From positions 1 to 64,000 of the IMG/VR virus record IMGVR_UViG_3300023296_001079: a DNA stretch of 64,000 bases; one strand, written 5' to 3'. This document shows positions 10,450 to 26,118 of the stretch, in pieces. The notes beneath the pieces are model-generated. The model was not told the DNA's origin and ran no database searches. It saw only the letters and a program-made list of their open reading frames with translations. Source of the stretch: a virus. Within the stretch, counting starts at the first letter, position 1. Each line of letters opens with the position of its first letter. The position numbers and the translations under genes were made by a program.

Positions 10450-11067
10450 ATGAACCAGTACAGCGAAGACGAAGTAAAGCAGCAACTCACGCCCTATCAT
10501 GATCGCATCCGCGATGTGGTTGAGCGCGGATATGCTGACTGGGTTCAGATCAAAAAATTTATGGCGAAAAACAGCATTGGTCCGGTGTTATACCCGCGAA
10601 CCGTGGCGAACTTTGTCTTTGATGCGGTTGTTCAGCACGCTCTGATTGAGTTTGCTGAAGATGAAGGTGTCCGGGTCAAAAAAGAAGCTCAAACCGTGAA
10701 GTTTTGCTTTGATGATGTCGTCCTTGCGCGGTTCAAAAAGGGCGATGAAGACAATCTCGGCCAAAACCAACCGACACAAGCAGTGATCAACTTTGTTGAA
10801 GCACAAAATATTTTTCCGGGACTCCCGCCATCAGCCGCAAAAGTAAAATTTCTTTTCTCCGCTGATGCTATTGAAGGCGGCATTGATCGTGTCGTTGTCG
10901 CGGCGCGTGACGGGGATACTCTACTTTGGCATTACGATTTGGACGATATTGCCGAAAGCAACGGCACCGTGCCTTTCCCAACACCAATTGCCCCAATCGA
11001 AGACATCGAAAAAATTGTATCCCTGCGCAATCGCAAGGGCGATGCTGACGAAAACGAGAGCAGTTAA
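10450..11067 (+). CDS. 205-aa partner protein of the XRE-ImmA gene
   Basis: Unrecognised. The protein is soluble with mixed alpha/beta character (for example TPYHDRIRDVVERGYADWVQ). It ends 2 nt before the XRE-ImmA gene, so the two are surely co-translated. Two-gene units of this kind, with an ImmA/IrrE-type metallopeptidase and a companion, include toxin-antitoxin and anti-phage systems such as RosmerTA; the similarity here is in layout only. It could be the toxin or the substrate of the peptidase. Confidence 0.6.
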   Translation: MNQYSEDEVKQQLTPYHDRIRDVVERGYADWVQIKKFMAKNSIGPVLYPRTVANFVFDAVVQHALIEFAEDEGVRVKKEAQTVKFCFDDVVLARFKKGDEDNLGQNQPTQAVINFVEAQNIFPGLPPSAAKVKFLFSADAIEGGIDRVVVAARDGDTLLWHYDLDDIAESNGTVPFPTPIAPIEDIEKIVSLRNRKGDADENESS

Positions 11068-11069
11068 TC

Positions 11070-12146
11070 ATGGCAACTCGTGGAAGCTTGCTGCGCTTGG
11101 CGCGGCACCTTAGGGGATTCAACCAGAAGAAGTCTGCGGAGCTATTGGGAGTGGCGCAGGCCGTTTATTCCCGAATGGAAAACGATCTCGTAGAGACGGA
11201 CGACGTAATAATTTCGCTGGCTGCAAAATCATTCGACTTGCCACCAAACTTTTTTAATCTGGAAGACACGGTTTATGGCCCGCCTGTGAGTGTTCACACG
11301 ATGCGTAGAGGGAACTCGCAAGTGACCGCTCGTGATGTTGATATGATCACGGCAGAGTTGAACCTAAGACTGATACACCTTCGCCGCTTTCTGGATAACA
11401 TCGACATTACCCCTTCCTTGAGTGTCCCCAGACTCGACGTCGAGCGCTATGAGTCACCCGCAGATATTGCCGATATGGTGCGACGCCACTGGCAAATGGA
11501 TTCTGGGCCAGTTCACAATTTAACACGCTTACTTGAGCGCGCGGGTGTGGTTGTTGGGTATTCAAATTTTCATGGCGCGGGGGTGAGCGGCGTTACGTTT
11601 TCAGCGCCCGGACAGCACCCGCTCATTCTAATTAATCCAGATCACCCGGCAGATAGAGTTCGCTTCACATTGGCCCATGAATTAGGCCACTTGGTCATGC
11701 ACCGCTTCCCAACCCCTGAAATGGAAGTTGAGGCCAACCATTTCGCGTCAGTATTTCTTTTCCCGCGTAGAGACTTGAAAACAGCGTTTAGAGGAAGAAA
11801 GGTAACTTTGTCTTTGCTGGCTGCGCTCAAGCCGGAATGGAAAGTGTCTATGCAGGGTATATTGTATGTGGCTCAGAGAGAAAATCTTATCACAAAAAAC
11901 CAAGCTCGGTATCTGTGGGCACAAATCAGCTCTAATGGCTGGAAAACTAGAGAGCCATCGAGCCTTGATTTTGAACATGATCGCCCTTCGGTTTTGCCAA
12001 CGATCATAAAGTCTATGCTTGATGACCTTGGTTTTGAGAAAGATGAAGTATTGAGCATGTCGAGGGTTTATCAGAAAGACTTTGATCTGCTCTATCCAAT
12101 GCCAAAAGAGACTGAACAGCGGCCACGATTGCGTATTATAAATTGA
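11070..12146 (+). CDS. XRE-family regulator fused to ImmA/IrrE metallopeptidase (DUF955)
   Basis: 358 aa. Residues about 3-55 form a helix-turn-helix (LARHLRGFNQKKSAELLGVA, then VYSRMEND). A zincin domain follows, with RFTLAHELGHLVMH: HELGH at about 203-207 plus a downstream Glu in EVEANHFAS. In this family the DNA-binding part represses and the peptidase relieves repression by cleavage, or the pair acts as an antitoxin with protease activity. It starts 2 nt after the 205-aa gene. It is the best candidate to bind the palindromes at 9932 and 12152. The domain call is firm; the system-level role is inferred. Confidence 0.85.
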   Translation: MATRGSLLRLARHLRGFNQKKSAELLGVAQAVYSRMENDLVETDDVIISLAAKSFDLPPNFFNLEDTVYGPPVSVHTMRRGNSQVTARDVDMITAELNLRLIHLRRFLDNIDITPSLSVPRLDVERYESPADIADMVRRHWQMDSGPVHNLTRLLERAGVVVGYSNFHGAGVSGVTFSAPGQHPLILINPDHPADRVRFTLAHELGHLVMHRFPTPEMEVEANHFASVFLFPRRDLKTAFRGRKVTLSLLAALKPEWKVSMQGILYVAQRENLITKNQARYLWAQISSNGWKTREPSSLDFEHDRPSVLPTIIKSMLDDLGFEKDEVLSMSRVYQKDFDLLYPMPKETEQRPRLRIIN

Positions 12147-12151
12147 CATTA

Positions 12152-12185
12152 TATGCTTGACGCCAAGCAAGAAAGTTCATATTAA
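12152..12185 (+). promoter_or_regulatory. Transposase promoter overlapped by the shared operator
   Basis: The -35 is TTGACG (12157-12162), with a 17-bp spacer and -10 TATTAA (12180-12185). TATGCTTGACGCCAAGCA (12152-12169) holds the perfect inverted repeat TGCTTG/CAAGCA and matches the operator at 9932 at most positions. A protein bound here would block the -35. The -10 is so close to ATG 12187/12193 that the message may be nearly leaderless. Confidence 0.5.
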
Positions 12186-12186
12186 A

Positions 12187-13083
12187 ATGAGTATGAACAA
12201 GCTCGACATCAAAACCCGCACAATGATCCTGAACATGATGGTTGAGGGCAGCTCTATGCGCTCCATCAGCCGCGTTGTGGGTGTGTCGATCAACACAGTC
12301 ACCAAGCTGTTGATTGAGGCGGGTGAGGCTTGTGCTGCCTACCATGATGAGACGGTGCGCAACGTAGGATCGACCCGTGTTGCGTGTGATGAAATCTGGT
12401 CGTTCTGCTACGCCAAAAACAAGAACGTCCAGACAGCCAAGGCCGCACCTGATGGCGCTGGCGATGTTTGGACATGGACTGCAATCGACGCAGATAGCAA
12501 AATGATCCTGTCCTATGAGGTTGGTGATCGTTCCGCAGATACCGCCCACGAATTTATGTTTGATCTGCGTGACCGTCTGAGCAACCGCGTTCAGCTTACC
12601 GCAGACGGCCACAAAGCGTATCTCAGCGCAGTAGAGGGCGCGTTTGGTACAGACGTTGACTATGCGATGCTGGTCAAGCTGTACGGCGACCAGGCAGGCT
12701 CAAAGGGCCACGAAAAGAAGTACAGCCCCGCAGAGTGCACAGGCATCAAGAAAGAAGCCATCATGGGCCAGCCGATCAAGGAACTGGTCAGCACGTCCTA
12801 TGTTGAACGCCAGAACCTCACGATGCGCATGGGTATGCGCCGCTTCACCCGCCTGACAAACGGGTTCAGCAAGAAGTTGGAAAACCACCTGCACATGCTG
12901 TCACTGTATTTTGTGCATTACAACTTTGTACGTATCCACAAGACGCTGAAAATGACACCTGCGATGGCTGCTGGTGTATCCGACACGTTGCGTGACACGG
13001 CTTGGATTGTTAGCTTGATTGATGCCCGTGCGCCTGCTCCGAAAAAGCGTGGACCTTACAAAAAGAAAGAGATTTCAAACTGA
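12187..13083 (+). CDS. IS1-family DDE transposase
   Basis: 298 aa from ATG 12187; ATG 12193 is also possible. An N-terminal helix-turn-helix (MRSISRVVGVSINTVTKLL) precedes a catalytic core with CDEIWSFCYAKNKNV, WTWTAIDADSKM and a distal YVERQNLTMRMGMRRF. This matches the long single-ORF IS1-like transposases that need no frameshift. The stop codon lies inside the right inverted repeat. A longer start at 12157 would overlap the -35 box and is rejected. Confidence 0.88.
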   Translation: MSMNKLDIKTRTMILNMMVEGSSMRSISRVVGVSINTVTKLLIEAGEACAAYHDETVRNVGSTRVACDEIWSFCYAKNKNVQTAKAAPDGAGDVWTWTAIDADSKMILSYEVGDRSADTAHEFMFDLRDRLSNRVQLTADGHKAYLSAVEGAFGTDVDYAMLVKLYGDQAGSKGHEKKYSPAECTGIKKEAIMGQPIKELVSTSYVERQNLTMRMGMRRFTRLTNGFSKKLENHLHMLSLYFVHYNFVRIHKTLKMTPAMAAGVSDTLRDTAWIVSLIDARAPAPKKRGPYKKKEISN

Positions 13084-13100: not shown

Positions 13101-13126
13101 ACATAGGTAAACCCATCCTTTAAAGT
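13098..13126 (+). promoter_or_regulatory. Phage promoter for the capsid operon
   Basis: The -35 is TTGACA (13098-13103), with a 17-bp spacer holding TAGGTAAACCC and -10 TAAAGT (13121-13126) within CTTTAAAGTG. It nearly matches the promoters at 49582 and 54097, including a downstream GAGACAGA leader. It drives the 35-aa gene and probably the major capsid gene. Confidence 0.8.
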
Positions 13127-13412: not shown

Positions 13413-14555
13413 ATGGCCAATACACTCACCAACATTCTGGACAAGATTCTTGCCCAGGGCCTGTCCACCCTGCGAGAGGCCGCTGTCATGCCGCGCCTCA
13501 CAAACACCGATTATCAGGGTGACGCTGCCCGCCAGGGCAACACCATCGACGTCCCCATCCCCGTTGCCCAGGTTGTCTCCACGGTCGCAGCTTCCAGCAC
13601 GCCCAAACAGGCAATCAGCAAGCAACCCAAGCTGGTCCAGGTTCCCCTCGACCAGTGGAAAATGACGGACTTCTTCCTGACCGACAAGGAGATGGCCGAG
13701 ATTGAACGCAACCGCCACTTTGTGCCGATGCAGACCGCAGAGGCCGCCCGGGCGATTGCCAACTCAATCGACACGTTCATCCATGGCAAGTACACCGGAG
13801 TCTATGGCTACACCGGGGTTGCTGGCGTTATTCCGTTCTCCACCGTCGCCACGGCGACCGGAGCCCGGCGCGTCTTGAACACCCAGCTTGCGCCGATGAA
13901 TGATCGCCGGATCGTCATGGACCCCATTGCTGAAGATCAGGCCCTACAGCTTTCCGCCTATTCCGACATGGAGAAGACCGGAGAGCAGTCGGTGAAGATC
14001 GAAGGCGTGGTTGGACGGAAGTTCGGCCTAGATCACTATATGTCGCAAAACGTGCAAACCCATACAGCAGGTACAATCGCAGGTACTGCCTCGGCAGACG
14101 TTGCCTCGACCACGGCGGCGGGCGTTTCGACCATTGGAATGATCGCGGACACCCCGGCCACTGTTGTGGTTGGTGACGTGTTCACCATCGCTGGTGACAC
14201 CCAGACCTATGTGGTTAAGACGGCTGCCACCATCGGCTCCTCGAATACGGCGATTGCGTTCCAGCCGGAACTGGCGACAGGGGCAACTTCGGGCGACCTT
14301 GTCACCTTCAAGGCAAGCCACACGGTCAACCTGTGCTTCCAGCGCGGGGCCTTCGTCTACGTCACCCGTCCCATCGCAGATGCGGTTGGCGGAATGGCAG
14401 GCGGCAACCCCATGACGGAACTCACCGACAGCATGACCGGATTGACCATGCGGTTGGAAGTGGTCCGCCAGCACAAGCAGAACGCATTCCAGTTTGACGT
14501 TCTCTGGGGCGCGGCTCTGGTCCGCCCCGAATTTGCGGGCCGTATCGCAGGCTAA
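13413..14555 (+). CDS. Major capsid protein, P22 coat-like
   Basis: 380 aa. The N terminus (MANTLTNILDKILAQGLSTL) and the layout of the central insertion resemble P22 gp5-type coat proteins, which have the HK97 fold with an inserted I-domain. It assembles with the scaffold encoded at 8990. A leader of about 140 bases lies between the 35-aa gene and ATG 13413; the ribosome site (AGGGTCC) is modest. Two hairpins follow the stop. P22-like coat with siphovirus tail genes is a mosaic combination. Confidence 0.85.
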   Translation: MANTLTNILDKILAQGLSTLREAAVMPRLTNTDYQGDAARQGNTIDVPIPVAQVVSTVAASSTPKQAISKQPKLVQVPLDQWKMTDFFLTDKEMAEIERNRHFVPMQTAEAARAIANSIDTFIHGKYTGVYGYTGVAGVIPFSTVATATGARRVLNTQLAPMNDRRIVMDPIAEDQALQLSAYSDMEKTGEQSVKIEGVVGRKFGLDHYMSQNVQTHTAGTIAGTASADVASTTAAGVSTIGMIADTPATVVVGDVFTIAGDTQTYVVKTAATIGSSNTAIAFQPELATGATSGDLVTFKASHTVNLCFQRGAFVYVTRPIADAVGGMAGGNPMTELTDSMTGLTMRLEVVRQHKQNAFQFDVLWGAALVRPEFAGRIAG

Positions 14556-14629
14556 CCGGGAAAGGAAGACCCCCCGAGAGGTGCGGGGAGTCCTTGCCCT
14601 TCTTCCTGCTACCAATTAGGTGGTCGAGA

Positions 14630-14657
14630 GGCCCCCGAGGGAAACCCCGGGGGCCTT
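14630..14657 (+). terminator. Terminator after capsid gene
   Basis: GGCCCCCG (14630-14637) pairs with CGGGGGCC (14648-14655) around a short A-rich loop. The T-tract is poor (TTGCTCGTTT), so termination may be partial. A weaker CCCCG/CGGGG hairpin lies near 14570-14590. Confidence 0.65.
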
Positions 14658-14736
14658 GCTCGTTTGGGGTTTACTTAGGCCCTGGGCAGGCCTAGAACGC
14701 TATACCAGTATATCTCAACATATAGAGGGCTATGTC

Positions 14737-15189
14737 ATGCCGAGACTTCCCACAGTCACCATGAAGCACCGGAAGACGGGACGAATTAAGACCGTCAACG
14801 TGACCGACTACGCCAGAGACATTGCAGGCTGGAAAGATTACGAGCGGATATCCGAGACACGCGGCAACGCCACCGACAAGGAAGTCAAGCTGGCGGCCCT
14901 GGAATCGGATGACGTGAAGAAGAGGCTGGCAGACCCGAAACGGGAAAAGAAGTTTGGCGACCATCGCAGAGCCCAGGAGCACAACGCCTCCAAGACCAAC
15001 GTGGTGACGGAAGCCCCGGAGCACGGCACAATGGAAGACCCTGCCCCAGCATGGCGGAATATGCCCTGGATGGAGCAGGCCAAGTTTGTGCGCGAGGTCA
15101 CGGGCACCTATCCCCGGAGCAAGAAGCAGGCCGAGGCTCTCATGACCGCCTCCAGCGGAGCCGCTGACAAGGAACCACACACCGTTTAA
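14737..15189 (+). CDS. Hypothetical virion-region protein (150 aa)
   Basis: ATG 14737 is preferred over an upstream start at 14620, which would run through the terminator hairpin. The product is basic at the N terminus (TMKHRKTGRIKTVNVTDYAR) and charged throughout. It lies between the coat gene and the sugar cassette. It is unrecognised; a head accessory or decoration role would be a guess. Confidence 0.6.
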   Translation: MPRLPTVTMKHRKTGRIKTVNVTDYARDIAGWKDYERISETRGNATDKEVKLAALESDDVKKRLADPKREKKFGDHRRAQEHNASKTNVVTEAPEHGTMEDPAPAWRNMPWMEQAKFVREVTGTYPRSKKQAEALMTASSGAADKEPHTV

Positions 15190-15202: not shown

Positions 15203-16150
15203 ATGGGATTCGGTGACGAGATTATGGCCACGGCCTATGCCAAGGCCGTGGTGAAGAAATACCCCGAGGCCAAGGCCATCTTCGGGGACCCCAAGAACCA
15301 CCTGGATGCAGGGACTAACACTTTAAAGGTTAGCTTCTCGGAGGTGTTCCTGAACAACCCCCACATTCTGCAAGAGGGCGAGGCCATCAAGGACTTCGTT
15401 TGCATTCCGGATTATCCGGGCTGCCGGATGTATGTGGACTACGAGAAGTCCCAGACGGAGGGCAACAAGATAATGGCCTTCTCCTGGAACCCTGAATTTA
15501 GGGCCGCCCGGGGCCAGCTATTCTTCACAGACCAGGAGAAGTCCGTGGCGGCGGCCATCGTCGCCCGCCTGCCTTTCCCGTTCTATGCCATAGAGCCGAA
15601 TGTGGCAGGCAAGGACTGGATCAACAAGAAGGCCTGGGCCTGGGACCGGTGGCAGGCCGTGGTGGACCAGACCGTGGCTCACTCTGTTGGGGGTGACGAG
15701 GCCTTTCCCTGGGTCCAATTAAGCGGACCTCACCTTGCCGGGGTTGTCGGACTGGAGAACCTGCCCTTCAGGGTGGCCTGTGCGGTCCTGTCATGCGCGA
15801 ACGGCCTCCTGACTACTGATGGGGCCCTTCACCATGCGGCAGCGGCCCTGGGCGTCCCCGCTGTGGTCCTGTGGGGCCATTACTCGTCCCCCACTACTTT
15901 CGGGTACGAGGATCAGGTCAACCTGCGGGAATCAGACAGAATGAGTCTGGGCTGTGGGACGACATACGGGGAATGCCCCGAGTGCCCCAAGTCGATGGCG
16001 GCCATCACGGTCCCCCAGGTCCTGAAGGCCCTGGTGGCCATAACGAACCCGGACAGCCCCAAGGCCTACAAGTTCCAGGAGGACCCGGGAGGACCGCCCC
16101 CTATCTTTAAACCGGTGTCCGGATACGGTAAGGAAAAGCCCTATGTATGA
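15203..16150 (+). CDS. Glycosyltransferase family 9-like (heptosyltransferase-type)
   Basis: 315 aa. GFGDEIMATAYAKAV is the N-terminal loop of GT9 enzymes, and TTDGALHHAAAALGVPAVVLWG is the C-terminal donor-site motif. GT9 enzymes move heptose or related sugars onto lipopolysaccharide core in bacteria. The ribosome site is AAAGGGC. It is the first gene of an eight-gene + strand cassette with tight overlaps. In a phage it could modify a virion glycan or the host surface. Confidence 0.8.
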   Translation: MGFGDEIMATAYAKAVVKKYPEAKAIFGDPKNHLDAGTNTLKVSFSEVFLNNPHILQEGEAIKDFVCIPDYPGCRMYVDYEKSQTEGNKIMAFSWNPEFRAARGQLFFTDQEKSVAAAIVARLPFPFYAIEPNVAGKDWINKKAWAWDRWQAVVDQTVAHSVGGDEAFPWVQLSGPHLAGVVGLENLPFRVACAVLSCANGLLTTDGALHHAAAALGVPAVVLWGHYSSPTTFGYEDQVNLRESDRMSLGCGTTYGECPECPKSMAAITVPQVLKALVAITNPDSPKAYKFQEDPGGPPPIFKPVSGYGKEKPYV

Positions 16151-16997
16151 AGTTGGAATCTTCAGGCCTCTGGACGGCCCCTGGGATCACTCGTCCTTCC
16201 TGACTTCCTTTGCCCGAGGGGTGAAGGAGAAGGGGGACAACGCCAGGGTCCATAACCTGGAGGAAGGATACCAGGACTGTGACGTGGCTGTGGTCTTCGG
16301 CCTCCCCAAGTTTTCCGTCCCTGCCTCCTGGGCCCGGGGCTCCATAATCTATGAGCACCGATACCGCCGGAAGAAAAACGTCTTGATAATGGAGCGGGGA
16401 TTCATCAAGCGGGATACCCATTACGGGGTGGCCCTGAACGGCCTGAACGGCCTGGGGGACTTCGGGTCCAAGGACAGCCCTGCCGACCGGTGGAACAGGC
16501 TGGGGGCGGAGATTAAGCCCTGGCGGCCCCCGAACGAGGACGGTTACTTCCTCCTCTGTGGTCAGGTCCCCTGGGACGCCACCGTCCAGCATACGAAGCA
16601 TGCCCAATGGTGTCAGGCAGCCTTTAAAGCCATACAGGGGGAAGGTCACAAGGTCAGGTTCCGACCACACCCGGACGTCAAAGAGTATGACTACGGCCTG
16701 GAGGCCTCCAAGGCTTCCTGGGAGGAGGACCTTGACGGGGCCAATGCTGTGGTGACCTTCTCGTCCACCTCCTCTGCCCTGGCCGTCCTGGAGGGGATTC
16801 CTATATTCGCCCTGGACCGTGGCTCCATAGCGTACCAGATCGCCAACCAGGAACTGTCCCCTGAGACCCTGGCCGTCCCTGGCCTTGCGTTCAGGGACCA
16901 GTGGGCCTGGGACCTAGCCTATTCACAGTGGACCGAGGAGGAGATGGCCGGGGGACAGCCCTGGGAGCAACTCCGTTCGGCCATGTCCGCCAGCTAA
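16143..16997 (+). CDS. Putative glycosyltransferase, capsule-synthesis-like
   Basis: 284 aa. VRFRPHPDVK followed by NAVVTFSSTSSALAVLEGIP and a DRGS segment is the pattern of the C-terminal half of capsule-synthesis transferases (KpsS/KpsC-like) and CDP-glycerol transferases: a phosphate-binding HP motif, then a TFSST donor loop. It overlaps the GT9 gene by 8 bp. The family-level call is moderate; donor and acceptor are unknown. Confidence 0.6.
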   Translation: MYEVGIFRPLDGPWDHSSFLTSFARGVKEKGDNARVHNLEEGYQDCDVAVVFGLPKFSVPASWARGSIIYEHRYRRKKNVLIMERGFIKRDTHYGVALNGLNGLGDFGSKDSPADRWNRLGAEIKPWRPPNEDGYFLLCGQVPWDATVQHTKHAQWCQAAFKAIQGEGHKVRFRPHPDVKEYDYGLEASKASWEEDLDGANAVVTFSSTSSALAVLEGIPIFALDRGSIAYQIANQELSPETLAVPGLAFRDQWAWDLAYSQWTEEEMAGGQPWEQLRSAMSAS

Positions 16998-17016
16998 TGG
17001 AAGGTGGGGGTCAATA

Positions 17017-17814
17017 ATGAATCCGGACAGGGTAGCGGACGCCATCGTCTTCGTAGGCTGGGACCCTCTGGACGCCCAGGCCTTCCGGGTGGCTCTCCAG
17101 TCCATGTGGGAGACTTCCCCCGAGGTTCGGGAGGGGTCAATAATTGTGGAGCCTTTGGTCCAAGCTGACCTTCGGAGGCGGGGCCTATACTCCAGGTGCT
17201 TTCAGACTTTAGCTAACGGGCAGAAGATGGACCTGGGGGATAATTGCCCCCACTCCACGGAGTTCTCCTACACTCGATTCTTGACCCCACACCTTGCGAT
17301 GGCCCGGGGAATCACCAAGGCGCTGTTCGTGGACGCGGATGTCATGTTCCTGGGTAATGTGGCGGACCTGTTCGCCCTGGCGGACGCGAAGAAAATGGTC
17401 CAGGTGGTGAAGCACGATATGGTATTGGACCCCGACCGGGGACCTAAGATGGGGGTCTTTTTCCAGTCGGAATATGAGAAGAAGAATTGGTCCTCTGTTA
17501 TGCTGTTTCCGGACGCCAGGAAACTGTCCGACTGTTTGAATCCCTTGACGGTATCGTCCACCCACCGGAACTACCTCCACCAGTTTGGCTGGGTAGAGGA
17601 CAAGGCCATAGGGGCCCTTCCGGAGCACTGGAACTGGCTGGAGGGGTACAGTAAATCCGCAGCGGCCCCTTGCCATTCCCTGGTCCACTTCACCCGGGGC
17701 ACCCCGGACATGATTAAGGACGTGGACCCCGTCCTTGGGTCTAGGTGGGACGAGTTCTCCGACCGGGCGGGCTCTGCTATGTACCCCTTTGGATGGGGAG
17801 CCTTAATGGCATGA
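17017..17814 (+). CDS. Glycosyltransferase, GT8-like, with DxD motif
   Basis: 265 aa. ALFVDADVMFLGN (D106 and D108) is the metal-binding DxD of GT-A enzymes such as GT8, preceded by FSYTRFLTPHLA. A retaining hexosyl or similar transfer is expected. The start at 17017 follows GGAGG-like bases; the end overlaps the sulfotransferase by the ATGA at 17811. Confidence 0.7.
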   Translation: MNPDRVADAIVFVGWDPLDAQAFRVALQSMWETSPEVREGSIIVEPLVQADLRRRGLYSRCFQTLANGQKMDLGDNCPHSTEFSYTRFLTPHLAMARGITKALFVDADVMFLGNVADLFALADAKKMVQVVKHDMVLDPDRGPKMGVFFQSEYEKKNWSSVMLFPDARKLSDCLNPLTVSSTHRNYLHQFGWVEDKAIGALPEHWNWLEGYSKSAAAPCHSLVHFTRGTPDMIKDVDPVLGSRWDEFSDRAGSAMYPFGWGALMA

Positions 17815-18464
17815 GTTACTTCTCCAGGGACCTGAACATGGTCTTCATTCATATCCCCAAGAACGCGGGGACGTCGATTCACCGGACCCTGACCGATTTG
17901 GTCCCGGACCTGGAAGCCTTCGACGCCACGGACGCCCTCCACCGGGAACAGCGTCACCCAGCCTTCGCCAACCATTTCCCCATGCCCATGGCCAATGCTC
18001 TCTGCCGGTATTTCATCCCGGACTTTGACCCTTTAAAGGCCACCTCCTTCATGGTGGTCCGGAATCCCTGGGAGCGTATGGTTTCCCTGTTCGAGCACAG
18101 GAAGCGAAAGAAGGATTTATTCTACGAGGGGAACCCCAGGAACTCTGGGCCGGACAAGGTGGCCCTGGCCAAAGGATTCAAATACTGGCTGATGGAGTCC
18201 CCCTCGCCGGGGGACTCCATCCTGACACGGACCCCCCAAATGGACTGGGGACCGGTGACCCATACCCTAAACTTCAATGACGATTTACTTGGTCAGTGGG
18301 TGGACTTGATTCACGGCCTGGGCCTGCCTACGGTCAACCTTGTCCAGGCCAACACAGGCAAGGGCGAATCCTCCAAGTATCGCTCCTACTACGACATTGA
18401 ATCTTTTGGGTTCGTCCGGGACAGGTTCAAGAAAGACATTGAGGAATTCAATTATGCCTTTTGA
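17811..18464 (+). CDS. Sulfotransferase family protein
   Basis: 217 aa. VFIHIPKNAGTSIHRTL (about residues 11-27) is the 5'-phosphosulfate loop, and VVRNPWERMVSLFEHR (about 81-96) is the 3'-phosphate site of PAPS-dependent sulfotransferases. The C terminus, GFVRDRFKKDIEEFNY, is also typical. It would sulfate a carbohydrate. The start ATG 17811 overlaps the GT8 stop by 4 bp; an in-frame start at 17745 would lie inside that gene. Confidence 0.8.
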   Translation: MSYFSRDLNMVFIHIPKNAGTSIHRTLTDLVPDLEAFDATDALHREQRHPAFANHFPMPMANALCRYFIPDFDPLKATSFMVVRNPWERMVSLFEHRKRKKDLFYEGNPRNSGPDKVALAKGFKYWLMESPSPGDSILTRTPQMDWGPVTHTLNFNDDLLGQWVDLIHGLGLPTVNLVQANTGKGESSKYRSYYDIESFGFVRDRFKKDIEEFNYAF

Positions 18465-19437
18465 TTTTAGCTTCCCGGACAGTGCCTCCCACCCTGAGTG
18501 GGACGTTCCGAGGTCTCCGGACAATTGGCACCTCCCCGTTTCGGCAGAGGTTGGAGTTTATATGGTTGAAGCCCAAGGGGCCTTCGGACGGGCCCATGAA
18601 TTTTTGGGCCGGCAGATCGAGGCACAGGCCCTTTTACAGGACCAATACCACAGCGTCCTGGGGGCCTTCCGCCGGTATGCGGCCTTTCAGAATCCCCCCA
18701 AGGATAACTTCCTGTGGCATTCCGGATATTTAGCCTATCGGGACGAGAATCCGCTGGCGGGTCTGTTCCTGTCGGAACTCCAGCACCTTTCCCAGATGGA
18801 GGTCACCTACCCCCTGCCCATAAAGAAGATCGACAGGACCATGGCTTGCTCCAAGACCAAGACCCAGGCGGTCCAGGACTACCTCCAGAGCCTCCCCCTA
18901 TGGCACCATGTAGCGGACTACTTTGGGCACCACCCCAACGTCAAGACGGTCCAGGCCCACCTGTCCCGTCCAGGCGACCGGCACCACCGGCAGACCTTCC
19001 GGGACCTCCCCCATGAAGGCAAGCTTCTGAACCTGCACGTTGACCCCAAGCCGGGCGTCATTAAGGCCATCATCTACCTGGGAGAGGTTGGGACCTGTCA
19101 CGGGCCCTTCCAGATTCTTCCCGCCTCCAAGGACATGGGGGAATCCATGTTCCAGAGAATTGTGGCCTGGGGAAACTCCACTGGGAACTACTGCCACACG
19201 CCCGAGCACAGGCGGGCCATGGGGGCCCTGCCTGCACCCTGGCGCGTCAACGCTATTGTGGGAAAGCTAATCCCGGACGATTCCGAGGACTTCAAGAACT
19301 TCACCGGGCCGAAAGGCCTCCGGACCATCACCAGCGATATCGCCAACGTCATCGTGTTTGACCCCGCCTGGAACTTCCACAGGGGTGGACTGGTGGAGGA
19401 GGGCGAACGCTTCAATCTTCAGGTGACAATCCAATGA
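18454..19437 (+). CDS. Probable 2-oxoglutarate/Fe(II) oxygenase (phytanoyl-CoA dioxygenase-like)
   Basis: 327 aa from ATG 18454, which overlaps the previous gene by 11 bp. The metal triad is visible as HVD (H195, D197 in LNLHVDPKPGVIKAIIYL) and a distal H309 in NFHRGG, with R321 downstream (GERFNLQ) to bind 2-oxoglutarate. HGPFQILPASKD after the first motif also fits. Hydroxylation of a sugar or lipid is possible. A longer frame starting at 18340 is not credible because it lies within the sulfotransferase. Confidence 0.65.
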   Translation: MPFDFSFPDSASHPEWDVPRSPDNWHLPVSAEVGVYMVEAQGAFGRAHEFLGRQIEAQALLQDQYHSVLGAFRRYAAFQNPPKDNFLWHSGYLAYRDENPLAGLFLSELQHLSQMEVTYPLPIKKIDRTMACSKTKTQAVQDYLQSLPLWHHVADYFGHHPNVKTVQAHLSRPGDRHHRQTFRDLPHEGKLLNLHVDPKPGVIKAIIYLGEVGTCHGPFQILPASKDMGESMFQRIVAWGNSTGNYCHTPEHRRAMGALPAPWRVNAIVGKLIPDDSEDFKNFTGPKGLRTITSDIANVIVFDPAWNFHRGGLVEEGERFNLQVTIQ

Positions 19438-20177
19438 CCGCTTTAAAACTATCTCACGAGGTTCTGGCCCGCCGGGTATACCGGGAAGACGTCAACATGG
19501 GACTGGCCGCCAACACCATCATGAAGTTCGTGGTTCCTCTCCTGGACCCCCTGAAGGTGGCCCTGGATGTAGGGGCAGCCACTGGCCACATTACCAACAT
19601 CATCGCCCCCCACGTTTTCCGGGTCTATGGATTCGAGGCGGTCCTTCCGGTGTTCTTTCAATATTGCAAAATGCAGGACCGGTGGGACAACGTGGTCCCG
19701 GTCTATGGAGCGGTGGGCTCCGACATGGGGACGGCTGAGTTCTTCGTGGATGACAAGCGCCTGTCCAACTCAGGCTTCCAGGACCTTGTGGACGGGCAGA
19801 AGACCCGAGTCCCCATGCTCTGCCTGGACCCTATGTTTGACCAGGACGAGACGATTGGATTCGTCAAGGTGGACGTGGAGGGCAATGAGTTGGACGTCCT
19901 CCGAGGGGCGGAAGGTATCCTCCGGCGGGACCGGCCTCTTCTCATGGTGGAAATTTATAAGCCATTCTGCCCCTACCCCCTGGAGAAGGTTTTCCAGTGG
20001 ATTATGGACCAGGGCTACACCTGTTTCTGGTATGTCAAGAGCCGGGGCCACATGGCCTCCTGCCACACGGCGGAAGAGGCCGCCGTGGTGTGCGTGGACA
20101 AACATGAGGAGCATGACGGGGACTTCTTGTTTGCCCCCACCCAGTTACGCCTAGCAGAAGCCTGGAAGGGCCTTTAA
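19434..20177 (+). CDS. FkbM-family methyltransferase
   Basis: 247 aa. SAM-binding ALDVGAATGHITNII, then GFVKVDVEGNELDVLRGAEG and LLMVEIY are FkbM hallmarks. These enzymes O-methylate sugars and polyketides. It overlaps the oxygenase stop by ATGA and is followed directly by a second methyltransferase, so methylated sugars are a likely output of the cassette. Confidence 0.85.
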   Translation: MTALKLSHEVLARRVYREDVNMGLAANTIMKFVVPLLDPLKVALDVGAATGHITNIIAPHVFRVYGFEAVLPVFFQYCKMQDRWDNVVPVYGAVGSDMGTAEFFVDDKRLSNSGFQDLVDGQKTRVPMLCLDPMFDQDETIGFVKVDVEGNELDVLRGAEGILRRDRPLLMVEIYKPFCPYPLEKVFQWIMDQGYTCFWYVKSRGHMASCHTAEEAAVVCVDKHEEHDGDFLFAPTQLRLAEAWKGL

Positions 20178-20804
20178 ATGACCAGTTCGAGTGGAGAGCG
20201 GCAGATAGGCAAGCGCCTGGACGACATAGCCCCGGACCATGTGGCCAGATATCACTGGGCGGCTAGAATGCTTCACATTAAGCTGGACAGGAAGGTCTTC
20301 GGGCCCCCCCGGATTCTGGACGCGGCCTGTGGTTGTGGGTACGGGTCAGAGGTACTGGCCCAGAGCGGGTTCAAGGTGACGGGGGTTGATATCTCCCCGG
20401 AAGCTAAAGCCTACGCCCGTCACTTCGGGGCGGGGCGGGACTGGGACTTCCTCCAGCACGATATCCTGAACCTGGGACACCTGGGAAAGTTCGACGCGGT
20501 GGTGTCGATTGAGACGGTGGAGCATATCAACCAGGACGGGTTCTGGGTTACCCACATGCACCGGCTGGCGGACTTGGCTGTGGTCACGGTCCCCAACCAG
20601 TTGGTGACCCCGTTCACCCCCAACCAATTCAAGCACCACTTCCGGCACTACACCCCAGACCAGTTGGGCGGTCTATTCAGGGCCCGAGATTGGAACATAG
20701 AGGAGAATGACTGGTGGACACAGAAGGGCACAAAGTGGAAGGGCACAGATATGTCACCGGGGAAGGGGGGGAGAGTGTTGGGCATTATAGCCTCCGGCGC
20801 ATAG
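20178..20804 (+). CDS. Class I SAM-dependent methyltransferase
   Basis: 208 aa. ILDAACGCGYGSEVLAQSG is motif I, VTGVDISPEA motif II, and FDAVVSIETVEHI motif IV, as in Methyltransf_11/23 small-molecule methyltransferases. ATG 20178 immediately follows the previous stop. The 3' end overlaps the SIS-domain gene. Confidence 0.8.
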   Translation: MTSSSGERQIGKRLDDIAPDHVARYHWAARMLHIKLDRKVFGPPRILDAACGCGYGSEVLAQSGFKVTGVDISPEAKAYARHFGAGRDWDFLQHDILNLGHLGKFDAVVSIETVEHINQDGFWVTHMHRLADLAVVTVPNQLVTPFTPNQFKHHFRHYTPDQLGGLFRARDWNIEENDWWTQKGTKWKGTDMSPGKGGRVLGIIASGA

Positions 20805-21370
20805 CCCAACAGGTCATACTCCAGGAATCCTTGGGGCTGGTGGCCCTGGCAGACGCCCTCCCGGTGGCGGTGTTCGATGATGCGGTGAACCACCTCTGCC
20901 GACAGGGAACCGTGGTCCTGTCTGGGTTGGGGAAAAGCGGACACGTTGCCCGGAAGATATCCTCCACCATGACGTCCCTGGGGACGCGGTCTGTATACAT
21001 ACACCCCACCGAGGCTGCCCACGGGGACCTGGGCTTCCTGGGCCCCCAGGACGCCCTCCTGGCCCTATCCAGGTCCGGCGGGGCGGAAGAGTTGCTCCAC
21101 CTGTTCCACAGGGCCAAGGATTTGAACATCCCCTCCGTCCTGATAACGGAGGACCCCGCTTCCCGGCTGGCCAGGGTGGCGGACTTCGTCCTCCCTATTC
21201 CCAAGGTCCTTGAAGCCTGGGGCCATGCCCCTTCCACCTCAACCACGATGCAGATGGGCCTGGGCGATGCCCTCGCTATCTGTCTGGCCCAGTTGCGCGG
21301 CTTTACCAATACGGACTTCAAGAGGACCCACCCTGGAGGGGCTCTGGGCCACCTGAAGAAGGCTGGATAG
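20735..21370 (+). CDS. SIS-domain sugar isomerase, KdsD-like
   Basis: About 211 aa. VVLSGLGKSGHVARKISSTM, then HPTEAAHGDLGFLG and the C-terminal FKRTHPGGALG match D-arabinose-5-phosphate isomerases, which make the precursor of Kdo, an LPS core sugar. The CBS domains of full KdsD are absent, as in single-SIS forms. GTG 20735 is chosen for its AGAAGGGC ribosome site; GTG 20714 is the longer alternative. It overlaps the methyltransferase by 70 bp and is the last cassette gene. Confidence 0.75.
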   Translation: MEGHRYVTGEGGESVGHYSLRRIAQQVILQESLGLVALADALPVAVFDDAVNHLCRQGTVVLSGLGKSGHVARKISSTMTSLGTRSVYIHPTEAAHGDLGFLGPQDALLALSRSGGAEELLHLFHRAKDLNIPSVLITEDPASRLARVADFVLPIPKVLEAWGHAPSTSTTMQMGLGDALAICLAQLRGFTNTDFKRTHPGGALGHLKKAG

Positions 21371-21451: not shown

Positions 21452-21883
21452 ATGTCAGATTTTGTATTTAACCGGGCAAAGGGCGCAGCGGCTGAACTGT
21501 GCCGGAATTATACCGGGGCCCTGATTATGGCCCTATACAAAGCGGTGGGGAATGTTTCCACCCTCCGAGACGCGGACAACCTGTCGGCAGTCGCGGCAGT
21601 CGCAGCCACCACGGAATTGACGGATGGCTCCTACGCCCGGAAGACAGGCTTAACTGAGACGGTCACCCTTGACGACACCAACGACCGGGTGGACCTGGAC
21701 GTCCCAGACCAGACGTGGTCCGCCCTGGCGGGCTCCGCTGTGGTTGGGGTGGTCATCGCCATTGAGTCCTCCGCCAGTGATTCGGCGCGGATTCCTCTGA
21801 CCCAACAGGACTTCGCTGTGACCCCGGACGCTTCGGACGTCACCCTCCAGGTCAACGCCTCCGGCTTCTATCGGGCCAGCTAA
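21452..21883 (+). CDS. Virion structural protein (143 aa), head-region
   Basis: The pattern FNRAKGAAAELCRNYTGA and TLDDTNDRVDLDVPDQTW recurs in small phage proteins found just after the capsid block; their exact role is not known to me. The rest is beta-rich and Ala/Thr/Ser-rich with few Lys. It is likely a head decoration or connector protein. Confidence 0.6.
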   Translation: MSDFVFNRAKGAAAELCRNYTGALIMALYKAVGNVSTLRDADNLSAVAAVAATTELTDGSYARKTGLTETVTLDDTNDRVDLDVPDQTWSALAGSAVVGVVIAIESSASDSARIPLTQQDFAVTPDASDVTLQVNASGFYRAS

Positions 21884-21897
21884 AGGACCCCCTACAC

Positions 21898-22308
21898 ATG
21901 AACATTCCCGCATGGCTGACAGAAGACGCCCAGGGCCGCTGGCACATTGACAGCGATGGGGCCTATCCCGAGTGGATGGGATTCCTTGGCCTGACCAATG
22001 AGGACCTTGACCGCTACTGGCTGGAGGTTCTCTTCCAGTGTGCCAAGATGGACGCCCAGGTGGCCGTCCGGAGTTCCGGGGATGACCCCCGCATGGTGGG
22101 CAAGGGTCTTATCCTTGTGGTGGACGCCACCAAGGCCAAGAAGCAAAGCTGGGCGCAGATAAACTTCCCCGTGGAGACAGCGGCAGGCCGCCGGAAGCGG
22201 GAGGCCCTCATGGGGGAGAACCGCAAGCTGGCGGGTCCGGACGCGGCCACCAAAGGCAAGGAAGCGCGGGCGCTGTACCGAAAGATTCGAGGCTTCGTCC
22301 CGGAGTAG
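21898..22308 (+). CDS. Hypothetical protein (136 aa)
   Basis: Unrecognised. It starts MNIPAWLTEDAQGRW. The C-terminal half is helical and basic (RRKREALMGENRKLAG). It lies in the connector block 14 nt after the previous stop. Confidence 0.6.
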   Translation: MNIPAWLTEDAQGRWHIDSDGAYPEWMGFLGLTNEDLDRYWLEVLFQCAKMDAQVAVRSSGDDPRMVGKGLILVVDATKAKKQSWAQINFPVETAAGRRKREALMGENRKLAGPDAATKGKEARALYRKIRGFVPE

Positions 22309-22338
22309 CCCCACCTCTGTTGCTTTAAAGGGGTCCCA

Positions 22339-22770
22339 GTGAAAACGTACACGCCCAACGGAAACTTCAAGGTCAACCGGAACGTGTTGATTGCCCTGGG
22401 CGAGGAAGTCCCGGAGCATTTCCACGTCTGGAGTCACACGGTCCTTCCGGTGGAGGGCCTGTTCCAGATAACGGCCTGGGATAATCCGGACTGTGACAAT
22501 GAATTTGACGTGAACAAGCACCCCCTTCTTGGGTCCACCCACGTGGGTTATCCGAGATATGCGAAGGCGCACCCTGATATTGTGGTTCACCCCTGGGCCT
22601 TGATTGACGCGAAACGATTCCACGTCATACGGCTGGTGTCCCTGACCAGTAAGGTGGGGGAATCCGAATTGATCGAAACCCAGGGGGAGTTCTGGTGTTG
22701 CTGGTCCCACCGGAAGGTGGACGGGGAAGTGGTGCAATACGACACCGGCTGGAGTGGGGCCCTTTCCTGA
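22339..22770 (+). CDS. Hypothetical protein (143 aa)
   Basis: Unrecognised, rich in Trp and His, and apparently beta-rich. GTG/ATG choices agree on 22339, which follows TTTAAAGGGGTCC. Its stop overlaps the next start by one base (TGATGG), indicating coupling. Confidence 0.6.
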   Translation: MKTYTPNGNFKVNRNVLIALGEEVPEHFHVWSHTVLPVEGLFQITAWDNPDCDNEFDVNKHPLLGSTHVGYPRYAKAHPDIVVHPWALIDAKRFHVIRLVSLTSKVGESELIETQGEFWCCWSHRKVDGEVVQYDTGWSGALS

Positions 22771-23264
22771 TGGCCGAGTATATCGCCGTCCATGGGATAG
22801 CCTACCATGACCGGCACTGGCACCCAACGAAGCAACCAAAAAGCCTTCGGGATACAATGATATCGTCCGGAGAACTTATCACCCTGTGGCAAGCCAACGG
22901 CCCCAGGCACTGGTTCCCTGTGTGGGACTCCAACCCTACCGTCATTCGCGTCCGCATTCTGAACGCCTTGGTGGGGCAATATGACTGGATGGTGTCCGAC
23001 TATACAGTCAATGACGCCACAGCCCAGGACCCTTATTCCATTGTCACAATTGCGAAGCGGTTGTGGAGGCTGGACCATGTTCCAATGTTGGCGGACGAGG
23101 TCACCCGTCTGAAGCGTCCCTTGAACATGGAGTCTGACATACTGGACCTAGACCCTTTAAAGCTAACGAGAAAGGTAGAGGGAGGAGTTCTGTTCAATAA
23201 AAATGCGGAGGACGTTCCGCGGGAAGACCCCACCCGGGCTGGTCTGGCCGGAGGACGTTTGTAG
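22770..23264 (+). CDS. Hypothetical protein (164 aa)
   Basis: ATG 22770 is used because it sits on the stop of the previous gene; an in-frame ATG at 22695 is inside that gene. No motif is recognised. The stop overlaps the GTG of the next gene (TAGTGG). Confidence 0.6.
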   Translation: MAEYIAVHGIAYHDRHWHPTKQPKSLRDTMISSGELITLWQANGPRHWFPVWDSNPTVIRVRILNALVGQYDWMVSDYTVNDATAQDPYSIVTIAKRLWRLDHVPMLADEVTRLKRPLNMESDILDLDPLKLTRKVEGGVLFNKNAEDVPREDPTRAGLAGGRL

Positions 23265-25291
23265 TGGCCACCGACCGGACCAGAAAATGCCCCATCACAA
23301 TCTCCTCCACCTATGTGGCCTCCACGGTGGCGAACTACCCCTTTCGTCTGGAGGTGGCGGACCTGCCCAGCGAGGCCATGGACGCGGACGGGACCTACCC
23401 CTGCAACGCGGACGGGGCGGATATTCAGTTCTTCAGTGACGAGGACCTGACCACCGAGTTGGCCGTTGACGTTGTCTTCGTCAACCTGAACAACAACCCT
23501 GCCCTGGCCACCTCCAAGATATTTGTCAAGATTCCCAGCCTCTCTTCAACCTCTGATACCACCATATGGATGGCCTACAATACGGTGGACCCCGCCACCT
23601 TCCCGGCGGCAGATTCTACCTATGGCTCGGAGGCTGTCTGGGCTGACTATGAACTGGTTATCCACGGGGAGGCGGGGTACGAGGACGCGGCGGGGAATCA
23701 TACAGTCAGCACGTCCGGGAGTCCGACCTACAGCGAAGACGATGGGCTGATTATCGTCTCCACCCAGTATGCCTACGTTACGGCCACGGCCCTGGGGGAG
23801 ACGGACCTAACGGTCCAGGCGAGAGGCCGGGCGGCGGAGTTCAAACAGTACACCTACGGCAACAGCACCCACCTGGGCTCCAACATATTCAACACCCGAG
23901 TTTTGGGGTCAGACGACAGCCCCACCTTCGGCATGTTCCATAATTCAACCTCTCCCAAGGTCTCCTTTGTGATCGACAGCGAAGGGATCGGCAAAGGCGC
24001 GGACGGCACCACCACGCTGGCGGTGGATACTTGGTATCACATGCACGGAACAGTAGTTCCTAACGGGTCCATTCCAACCTATGACGGAACCTTCCGGGCG
24101 TATCTGGCGGGGGCGGAGGAAGGAACGAACAACATAGCCCTGGGAGGAACCTGGGGCGGGGGCGCGTGGCAGGGAGCCACATGGTATATCGGGGAGCACG
24201 TAGACTGGGACGGTCAGACCACGGTGGACCTAAAGGACCTCCGGGTCCGCAAGGAGGCCCTGGGGGCTGACTGGATTGCCACGGAGGAGGACAACCTGTC
24301 CACGGCTGCCTTCGCCACGGTGGGGACCTGTGAGACCATATCCACGGACCAGACTGTGGAAGTATCCCTGACAACTGAGACGGACGTGGCCCTGGCGTCT
24401 TCGGCAGCCAAAGCCCTGGCCCTGGCCCAGGTGGCAGAGGCCGATTCGGCCCTGTCGGTCTCCTTCTCCCGGGCCCTGGCTATAGTCCTGGCGACCGGGA
24501 CGGACACGGCCCTGACCCTGGCAGGCTTCGACAAGGTTAAAGCGGTGGGGCTGGCAACGGAACTGGACACGGCCCTGACCCTGTCCGGGTGGGCCAAGGT
24601 CACCGGGACAGGGCTGGCAACGGAACTGGACATCACCTTCTCCCCCACGGCAGCCTCCGCCGGGAGCATTGGTCTATCAGTAGAGACCAACCTGTCCCAG
24701 GCCCTGGGGGTGTCAAAGGTCCGGGCAACCGGGCGGACCACGGAAGCGGATTCGGTCTTCGCCATCGCGGGCTGGGCAAAGGCCACAGCAATAGGGGTGG
24801 TGGCAGAGGCGGACCAAGCCTTCACGCTGACAGCGGACAAGCTTCTGGCCATCGCCCTGGTGGCAGAGGCGGACCAAGCCTTCTCCCCCACGGCCCAACA
24901 GTCTAGAATCATCGCCATTCAACAGGTCCTATCGGCAGCGGACCAAGCCTTCACTCTCTCCGGTTGGCTGAAGGCCCAGGGCCTTGGGCTGGCGACGGAA
25001 GCGGACCTTGCCCAGACTGTGGGGCGAATCCAGAACGTCTCCATTACCCTGGCGACCGATACCGAAACAGCCCAGACCCTGGGGACACCACAGAAGGCCC
25101 AGGACATTGGCCTGACCCTGGAGACCACGGTTCTATTCGGGGTGGAGTTGATTGTAGGGTCCGCCCCAGACCAGAGAACGGTCCAGGTGACGGCAGACAG
25201 GCTCTCTGTGGTGGACACCCGGACGAGTTCGGCAGAGGCGGGCGGGGAGACCCGAGTTGCCACAAGAGTCTCTATAGTGCCGACCAGATAG
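23264..25291 (+). CDS. Large virion protein: DUF2341/LamG-like N terminus plus tandem ETD repeats
   Basis: 675 aa from GTG. Residues about 1-115 resemble DUF2341 (YPFRLEVADLP, ADIQFFSDEDL, KIFVKIPSL). About 130-345 is a LamG/lectin-like beta sandwich. From about 360 to 650 there are roughly 13 tandem units of about 21 aa with the core GLATEADxAxTLSG. Such repeats occur in phage surface proteins. It could be a head fibre or glycan-binding decoration. The position between neck and connector genes, away from the tail tip, is notable. Confidence 0.6.
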   Translation: MATDRTRKCPITISSTYVASTVANYPFRLEVADLPSEAMDADGTYPCNADGADIQFFSDEDLTTELAVDVVFVNLNNNPALATSKIFVKIPSLSSTSDTTIWMAYNTVDPATFPAADSTYGSEAVWADYELVIHGEAGYEDAAGNHTVSTSGSPTYSEDDGLIIVSTQYAYVTATALGETDLTVQARGRAAEFKQYTYGNSTHLGSNIFNTRVLGSDDSPTFGMFHNSTSPKVSFVIDSEGIGKGADGTTTLAVDTWYHMHGTVVPNGSIPTYDGTFRAYLAGAEEGTNNIALGGTWGGGAWQGATWYIGEHVDWDGQTTVDLKDLRVRKEALGADWIATEEDNLSTAAFATVGTCETISTDQTVEVSLTTETDVALASSAAKALALAQVAEADSALSVSFSRALAIVLATGTDTALTLAGFDKVKAVGLATELDTALTLSGWAKVTGTGLATELDITFSPTAASAGSIGLSVETNLSQALGVSKVRATGRTTEADSVFAIAGWAKATAIGVVAEADQAFTLTADKLLAIALVAEADQAFSPTAQQSRIIAIQQVLSAADQAFTLSGWLKAQGLGLATEADLAQTVGRIQNVSITLATDTETAQTLGTPQKAQDIGLTLETTVLFGVELIVGSAPDQRTVQVTADRLSVVDTRTSSAEAGGETRVATRVSIVPTR

Positions 25292-25302
25292 GACGGGATC
25301 GC

Positions 25303-26118
25303 ATGTCAGATATTGTTGGAACCTTCACCCAGGACGCGGACGAGAAGCTAGACTTCACCATAGACTGGACGCTGTGGATGGCCACGGCGGACGTCCTCAA
25401 TGGGTCCTCCTGGTCCGTGGAGACCTTCGCCGGGGACGCTTCCCCTCTGGCCGCTGCCCTTTCGCCTTCTCCCTCCTATGACGCGGGCGAGAACAAGACC
25501 ACGGTGTGGCTGGAGGACGGGTCCAACGGCAAGACCTACCGGGTCACCAATACGGTCACCACGACCGGTGGAAGGACAGGAGAGAAGGCCCTTCTCTTAA
25601 AGATCAATGACGCCCCCCTGGCGGGGCTGGTGGCCGAGGACGGCACAGGCCTTGCAGCCGCCACCAGTTACGCCACGGTGGCCGAGGCGGACACCTTCTT
25701 CTCCAGGCGTCTATACACCACACCCTGGACCGGCGCGGACCAGGACGACAAGGAGCGGGCTTTGATAATGGCCTCCTCCTTGCTGGACTCCCACATGACC
25801 TACCAGGGGATGAAGACCGGAGACACCCAGGCCCTGTCCTGGCCCCGGTATGGGATTTATGACAAGAGTGGATTCCTGGTTCCCTCCACAACTCTGCCCC
25901 AGGCTTTAAAGGACGCCACCTCCGAACTGGCCAAATGGCTTCTGGCCTCTGACCGGACGGCGGAGGACGACACCAAGGGGTTCCGGGAGATGAAGGTTGG
26001 CTCCCTGGAACTGGTGGTGGACAGGTCCGACCGGACGGCCACCATCCCGGATGCGGTCAAGCGACTTCTTCGCCCCTTCGGAAGAATCCACACCGGTATG
26101 GCCAGGGTGTCCAGATAG
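25303..26118 (+). CDS. Head-tail connector (DnaT-like/adaptor family) with N-terminal beta domain
   Basis: 271 aa from ATG 25303. The C-terminal about 170 residues (GLAAATSYATVAEADTFFS to KRLLRPFG) are the phage adaptor family sometimes labelled DnaT-like, which sits under the portal. The N-terminal about 100 residues form a beta-rich domain like those of tail-associated proteins. Thus two modules seem fused. The longer frame from 24964 is a shadow inside the previous gene. Confidence 0.7.
   Translation: MSDIVGTFTQDADEKLDFTIDWTLWMATADVLNGSSWSVETFAGDASPLAAALSPSPSYDAGENKTTVWLEDGSNGKTYRVTNTVTTTGGRTGEKALLLKINDAPLAGLVAEDGTGLAAATSYATVAEADTFFSRRLYTTPWTGADQDDKERALIMASSLLDSHMTYQGMKTGDTQALSWPRYGIYDKSGFLVPSTTLPQALKDATSELAKWLLASDRTAEDDTKGFREMKVGSLELVVDRSDRTATIPDAVKRLLRPFGRIHTGMARVSR

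Follow-up and report, generated by a model that had tools for sequence, protein, structure and literature searches.

A window of 64,000 nucleotides, covering nearly all of the 64,146 bases of IMG/VR virus record IMGVR_UViG_3300023296_001079, was analyzed for a cassette of predicted glycan-modifying enzymes encoded within the head module of a phage. An earlier note on this DNA had described eight such genes lying between capsid and connector genes. All eight are present at 15203–21370, intact and co-directional, between the gene for the major capsid protein (MCP; 13413–14555; PF11651, E = 8.5e-16; phrog_283, E = 1.7e-67), a possible acceptor of the glycan, and that for the head-tail adaptor Ad1 (24964–26118). 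The placement holds in this form, but the cassette does not directly adjoin either gene: a small-protein gene (14620–15189), partly conserved in the cassette relatives L003–L007 as judged by tblastn, lies before it and additional open reading frames (ORFs; 21452–25291) lie after it. Ad1 matches phrog_477 (E = 4.1e-40) at residues 222–381, with homology confined to the C-terminal part. A ninth gene, encoding a Maf/DUF115-domain protein, lies upstream of the MCP at 8006–8980. All of the genes given coordinates here as features of the system or its context are on the plus strand. The analysis was based on metagenomic contigs, from which gene content, active-site integrity, fold, conservation, linkage and clade origin were computed.

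The cassette begins with a predicted GT9 heptosyltransferase-like glycosyltransferase (15203–16150), for which the Pfam score is only slightly over the cut-off (PF01075, E = 6.7e-5) and a profile comparison with the PDB returned heptosyltransferase II (1psw, E = 2.5e-5). Its GxGD motif and residues C251, C258 and C261 are invariant in nine phages. The second gene (16143–16997) encodes a protein resembling retaining transferases of 3-deoxy-D-manno-oct-2-ulosonic acid (Kdo), specifically those for β-Kdo with a KpsC/WbbB fold, as recognized by the match of its AlphaFold2 model to KpsC. A GT8 glycosyltransferase (17017–17814; PF01501, E = 4.9e-6; phrog_28018, E = 8.5e-47) follows, with DxD and HxTxG motifs conserved in nine phages. 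The fourth product is a sulfotransferase of the Sulfotransfer_2 type (17811–18464; PF03567, E = 4.5e-10, above cut-off), predicted to depend on 3'-phosphoadenosine-5'-phosphosulfate and carrying invariant PKNAGTS (5'-phosphosulfate-binding) and RNPW (3'-phosphate-binding) motifs. The PhyH-type 2-oxoglutarate (2OG)-Fe(II) oxygenase (18454–19437) has no Pfam match of its own; its homologue in locus L045 (39% identity) matches PhyH at E = 1.2e-8, and the iron triad HxD...H (H194xD196...H308) and the 2OG-binding arginine (R318) are invariant in 23 sequences. Two predicted methyltransferases are encoded next, an FkbM-family O-methyltransferase (19434–20177; PF05050, E = 1.2e-12; TIGR01444, E = 2.3e-19, 70.3 bits versus a cut-off of 37.7) that retains the signature DVGxATG, and a class I S-adenosylmethionine methyltransferase (20178–20804; PF13649, Methyltransf_25, E = 2.4e-13) that retains DAACGCxYG. 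The last gene (20714–21370) encodes a KdsD/KpsF-like arabinose-5-phosphate isomerase consisting of the SIS domain only (KdsD model, E = 2.5e-45; PDB 2xhz, E = 2.3e-31). The eight families named earlier thus hold, with the "capsule-type" transferase sharpened to a KpsC/WbbB-type fold and the isomerase to the KdsD type.

Overlaps of 1–91 bp had been reported between consecutive genes. With the best start codons, some junctions do overlap, namely GT9/KpsC-like (8 bp), GT8/sulfotransferase (4 bp, after the sulfotransferase start was moved from 17745 to the ATG at 17811), sulfotransferase/2OG (11 bp, ATG at 18454), 2OG/FkbM (4 bp) and methyltransferase/KdsD (91 bp), but a 19 bp gap separates the KpsC-like and GT8 genes and the two methyltransferase genes abut. 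The KdsD start was placed at the GTG at 20714, which is preceded by a good ribosome site (GAGGAG); a start at 20777 was dropped since that codon is GTT. Clear transmembrane segments are missing from the cassette proteins, in which the 19-residue hydropathy mean peaks at 1.65 (in KdsD), and scans for promoters and terminators returned nothing informative within the cassette.

The phage-like codon use claimed for the cassette was borne out by a correlation of r = 0.97 between the relative synonymous codon usage (RSCU) of the pooled cassette and that of phage core genes, compared with r = 0.14 for an island at 10450–13083. Divergence of the cassette proteins between phages tracks MCP divergence (Pearson 0.76–0.99 over 6–21 pairs, which share taxa). 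As far as sequence can tell, the cassette is resident in the phage and not recently gained. The CTTTAAAG word, cited previously as a further common trait of the eight genes, is genuine (47 copies in the window versus 0.38 expected) but occurs in only three of them, at the rate ordinary for the genome. It is a palindrome spread over the window (e.g., 1176, 15321 and 63537) and absent from the 10.4–13.1 kb island. Its frequency is near zero in the relatives L003, L006, L007, L018, L036 and L037, making it private to the window phage among those compared. The copies at 13118, 49602 and 54117 have a common TAGGTAAA...CTTTAAAGTG context, possibly a promoter-like intergenic repeat.

The search for the gene order in other phages, as the earlier note had proposed, recovered the same genes in the same order at 35–58% protein identity, a recurrence that places the cassette beyond chance. 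In an MCP-based scan, loci L003–L007 carry GT9, KpsC-like, sulfotransferase, 2OG, FkbM, methyltransferase and KdsD genes in the order of the window, between MCP and Ad1 and at 35–57% identity, with the GT8 gene at its place in L003 only; L018 is a further locus with all eight genes. One of the ORFs at 21452–25291 encodes a 675-residue repetitive protein, and these ORFs were not found at the equivalent place in L003, L004 and L007, where Ad1 follows closely after KdsD. In Mardecavirus SSP002 (MCP identity 43%), Ad1 lies 0.6 kb after the MCP, with neither a cassette nor a Maf-domain gene. A wider MCP-scan census was made with six-frame profiles, which reveal genes under longer antisense ORFs, and gave 23 loci (window counted) in which glycan genes lie between MCP and Ad1 and 47 without, the latter defined by Ad1 at ≤ 1.2 kb from the MCP and no glycan genes. 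Methyltransferase, KpsC-like and GT8 genes are the commonest content in the clade, while GT9, sulfotransferase, 2OG-FkbM and KdsD are variable.

The MCP tree groups every cassette phage into a single supported clade (97/98). The only four unlabelled members of that clade (L087, L092, L093 and L114) all have the Maf-domain gene; three of them (L087, L093 and L114) are short downstream of the MCP, and L092 extends 10 kb without a recognized Ad1 or cassette gene. With these four left out, the cassette and the Maf-domain gene each require one change on the tree. Judged by this tree, the cassette is of single shared origin, with its gene content altered since.

The Maf-domain gene lies between the MuF and scaffold genes and encodes a putative protein O-glycosyltransferase (PF01973, E = 8.1e-14; 52.2 bits versus a cut-off of 34.6). 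GSGPTL-like and GGxxVxNR blocks are conserved across 19 phages. A profile built from these 19 members matched PDB entry 5mu5, the Magnetospirillum Maf enzyme, best (E = 7.9e-5) and MptE (8sd5) second (E = 5.9e-4), both as partial alignments. Of the cassette loci in which the sequence before the MCP reaches 2.5 kb or more, 17/17 have a PF01973 gene upstream of the MCP, compared with 0/31 non-cassette loci (Fisher 2e-13, kinship ignored). Because both the gene and the cassette arose once, these counts are read as linkage by one event followed by retention. The gene for the predicted transferase is counted as the ninth of the proposed glycosylation system, beyond the eight named earlier. The central Maf domain (pfam01973) is sialyltransferase-like, and Maf enzymes can attach Kdo to flagellin Ser/Thr (PMC11339370).

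Several further observations concern Kdo. The AlphaFold2 model of the KpsC-like protein, built from a 30-sequence alignment, has a predicted local distance difference test (pLDDT) score of 95.4. The protein has no Pfam match above cut-off and was identified by fold, with KpsC (6mgd, 8fuw and 6mgc; E = 2.7e-8 to 5e-8) as the best PDB matches, followed by WbbB and KrkA. Its top sequence-profile match is also KpsC, but weak (E = 0.016); in that alignment the QVxxDAS and xPHPD motifs correspond, GQVPWDAT and RPHPDV of the window protein pairing with GQVESDAS and KPHPDV of KpsC. The aspartate of the KpsC QVxxDAS motif is the nucleophile. The phage family keeps QVPxDA(S/T) and RPHP signatures, and a number of distant members (L011–L013 and L015) have lost the Asp motif. 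The product of 16143–16997 is accordingly described as a putative β-Kdo transferase of the KpsC/WbbB type.

Arabinose-5-phosphate, the product of KdsD, is a precursor of Kdo. The equivalents of the E. coli KdsD catalytic residues K59, E111, E152 and H193 are all conserved in six phages. The window protein scores below the family cut-offs (160.6 versus 203.7 bits for the kpsF subfamily; 155.2 versus 505 for the KdsD equivalog), and its match stops at position 151 of 268 in the kpsF model and 200 of 328 in the KdsD model, the C-terminal part being missing. Family searches of 24 records detected KdsA-type genes in seven and cytidine monophosphate (CMP)-sugar synthetases of the KdsB type in five, the carriers including two phages, of L036 and L037, that share the head lineage of the window. 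KdsA exceeded the equivalog cut-off in the related cassette phages of L059, L077, L081 and L082, and KdsB-type cytidylyltransferases exceeded the subfamily cut-off in L077, L078 (part of the L036 phage, of the same head lineage as the window) and L080. In the window phage, these searches found neither a KdsA-type gene nor a CMP-sugar synthetase, so the host would have to complete the Kdo pathway. Given the KpsC-type fold, KdsD, and the KdsA and KdsB genes of related cassettes, the predicted glycan most likely contains Kdo.

The 2OG gene is immediately upstream of FkbM in 39 of the 40 phage loci with enough upstream sequence; in the exception, L037, it is slightly farther away. This pairing suggests a hydroxylation followed by O-methylation. 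Scans of 84,980 prokaryote genomes with exact 2OG and FkbM peptide patterns returned no relative, a result consistent with phage-restricted subfamilies. The description of the pathway as unusual holds to the extent that the 2OG protein had no match in 50,697 phage records, but 47 FkbM-family loci were found in IMG/VR, and such predicted cassettes are common in uncultured phages. A literature search for a phage sulfotransferase, FkbM and glycosyltransferase together found nothing. Cassettes of 2OG, FkbM, sulfotransferase and GT9 genes also occur at L049 and L055–L063, in contigs with PhoH and exonuclease genes and, in some, ribonucleotide reductase; some add KdsA, a nucleoside diphosphate-sugar dehydrogenase or a second 2OG gene. 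For these occurrences of the 2OG-FkbM pair, beyond the clade and not among head genes, the "LPS" (lipopolysaccharide) clusters of cyanophages are the established analogue. Among L015/L016, the GT9 and KpsC-like genes of Caulobacter phage CcrSC stand between those for tail fibres and lysis, and in a Manatee Spring podovirus, genes for a transferase annotated as TibC, a methyltransferase and a KpsC-like protein lie beside the terminase.

Taken together, the system is proposed to be a head-module glycosylation pathway of a siphovirus clade, and the donor sugars, order of steps, virion-protein acceptor and benefit are inferred as follows. The Maf-domain protein would act in the host cytoplasm, beginning an O-glycan on Ser/Thr residues of one of the virion proteins, with CMP-Kdo or a similar CMP-ulosonic acid as donor. 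KdsD would supply arabinose-5-phosphate to the Kdo pathway, with KdsA, KdsB and KdsC coming from the host in the window phage and KdsA and/or KdsB brought by some relatives themselves. The KpsC-like transferase would add β-Kdo, and GT8 and GT9 a hexose and, probably, a heptose. The 2OG oxygenase and FkbM would act as a pair, the first hydroxylating and the second then O-methylating, while the second methyltransferase would methylate again and the sulfotransferase would sulfate. The resulting particles would bear an acidic decorated glycan, possibly shielding them or tuning adsorption. The probability that a virion protein is O-glycosylated in the cytoplasm in this way, by a glycan that contains Kdo and is partly sulfated and methylated, is estimated at about 0.5. 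The intact enzyme families are in keeping with the earlier suggestion that the genes build a sugar and decorate it with sulfate and methyl groups.

Virion proteins and the host surface had been named as the two destinations. That pair was well chosen, and the new evidence favors the virion without proving it: the Maf-domain gene in the head operon co-occurs with the cassette, the cassette is retained there clade-wide, its enzymes appear soluble, and neither a Wzx flippase (PF01943) nor a priming transferase (PF02397) was detected in the records searched, in which controls were positive. The competing view is that the cassette, working at the inner membrane, adds Kdo, heptose or hexose with sulfate and methyl groups to the lipopolysaccharide (LPS) core or to precursors of the capsule, and so prevents superinfection or keeps progeny from re-adsorbing to debris; it is the principal rival and is considered rather unlikely. 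It draws on the fact that GT9, GT8 and β-Kdo transferases are classic surface-glycan enzymes, and on the LPS-type clusters of marine T4-like phages, which are read in this way (PMC9602691, PMC7824862). It has no need of a head-operon position or of coupling to a Maf-domain gene, the empty prokaryote pattern scans and the missing flippase and priming transferase speak against it, and under it the fixation of the cassette in the clade's head operon would itself be unexplained. Several points nevertheless weigh against a virion target. Related cassettes in other phages adjoin nrd/phoH genes and not head genes, a placement that favors surface remodelling, and GT9 and GT8 are also LPS-core classes, so that a peripheral cassette could act on the LPS core without a flippase. 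PF01973 also covers MptE, a pterin enzyme that ranked second among the PDB matches; the Maf-domain protein is short (324 residues), and its AlphaFold model is too poor for use (pLDDT 49.5), which renders its Foldseek matches meaningless. The association of this gene with the cassette is a single evolutionary event, beyond statistical testing on the tree, and the KpsC match is at fold level (template modelling score of about 0.5, 12–16% identity).

Hypermodification of the phage DNA with sugar, as in TET- or hydroxymethylase-based systems, has been largely rejected as very improbable. Virus-encoded glycosyltransferases do hypermodify phage DNA with glycans (Pyle et al. 2024, as cited in PMC12619734), and the cassette combines a 2OG oxygenase with glycosyltransferases, but that oxygenase is PhyH-like and gave no Tet_JBP match (PF12851, searched without a positive control). 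With positive controls, the thymidylate synthase/hydroxymethylase family (PF00303) was absent from seven records and C5 DNA methylase (PF00145) from the window phage, and neither Kdo enzymes nor a Maf-domain gene would be expected. Equally hard to credit is a free small molecule or secondary metabolite in place of an attached glycan. One cyanophage gene cluster that includes 2OG oxygenases and methyltransferases has been interpreted as serving either capsule decoration or secondary metabolism (PMC7824862); here, three glycosyltransferases, a sulfotransferase and a Kdo supply gene, with no enzyme for release or export, are easier to reconcile with a glycoconjugate.

Outside the system, terminase (62534–63871) and portal (40–1383) genes lie at the two ends of the window, and from these positions the record is probably a close to complete, circularly permuted siphovirus genome. 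A protein of 1816 residues (1387–6837) comprises an N-terminal MuF-type head protein and a long extension that matches HipA_C weakly (1.9e-4, below cut-off). The 10450–13083 island, between scaffold and MCP, is low in guanine and cytosine and foreign in codon use (the RSCU correlation given above) and contains an unassigned ORF, a helix-turn-helix and M78 regulator (phrog_2439, E = 8.5e-76) and an IS1-type transposase; the cassette relatives that were compared have no such genes in this interval. An archaeo-eukaryotic primase with a TOTE-type domain (45332–46873; E = 9.4e-11) adjoins several UvrD-like helicases and a family A DNA polymerase.

The proposed system shares features with several known ones. 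In mycobacteriophages, phage-encoded glycosyltransferases decorate capsid and tail-tube proteins of tailed phages (Freeman et al. 2023, as cited in PMC12619734 and PMC11256854). Those systems use few glycosyltransferases, near the genome 3' end in Maravista, unlike the large cassette inside a head operon described here, and the mycobacteriophage passages of the two citing papers mention no Kdo, sulfation, FkbM, 2OG or Maf-domain genes. Flagellin O-glycosylation likewise involves a PF01973 protein, which transfers CMP-ulosonic acids to Ser/Thr of a self-assembling protein and accepts Kdo (PMC11339370), whereas in the phage a virion protein would take the place of flagellin as acceptor and the putative enzyme is short. 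The LPS-type clusters of the marine T4-like cyanophages P-SSM2 and S-SSM7 also combine phage glycosyltransferases with sugar-nucleotide enzymes, and one P-SSM2 cluster is near phoH, as are some related cassettes; they are read as surface modification, belong to larger genomes and lie outside head modules. The 2OG protein of the window has no match in the 50,697 phage records. KpsC and WbbB resemble the window protein in fold and in the two motifs, but the latter is a single short domain of low identity with a conserved QWTxxExxxG C-terminal motif. The giant viruses CroV and Fadolivirus encode Kdo synthesis (PMC9614988), as do related cassette phages, although giant viruses infect eukaryotes; the viral folds nearest to that of the KpsC-like protein include proteins of Tetraselmis virus 1.

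As a tentative extension that we do not yet favor, the whole clade of tailed phages may use a Maf-like protein transferase and a modular cassette fixed in the head operon to O-glycosylate its capsids with sugars of the Kdo type. To our knowledge, neither a Kdo-decorated phage virion nor a Maf-type system acting on a virus particle was known before, and on this reading the clade would provide the first of each. If correctly read, the cassette would also offer a compact set of enzymes for Kdo, sulfation and methylation, and virion glycosylation would provide a handle for mass measurement, each Kdo adding about +220 Da to a structural protein. Uncultured phages would then coat their particles with a sugar seen as a hallmark of the Gram-negative surface, following the O-glycosylation logic of flagellin, with a bearing on phage stability, adsorption and recognition.

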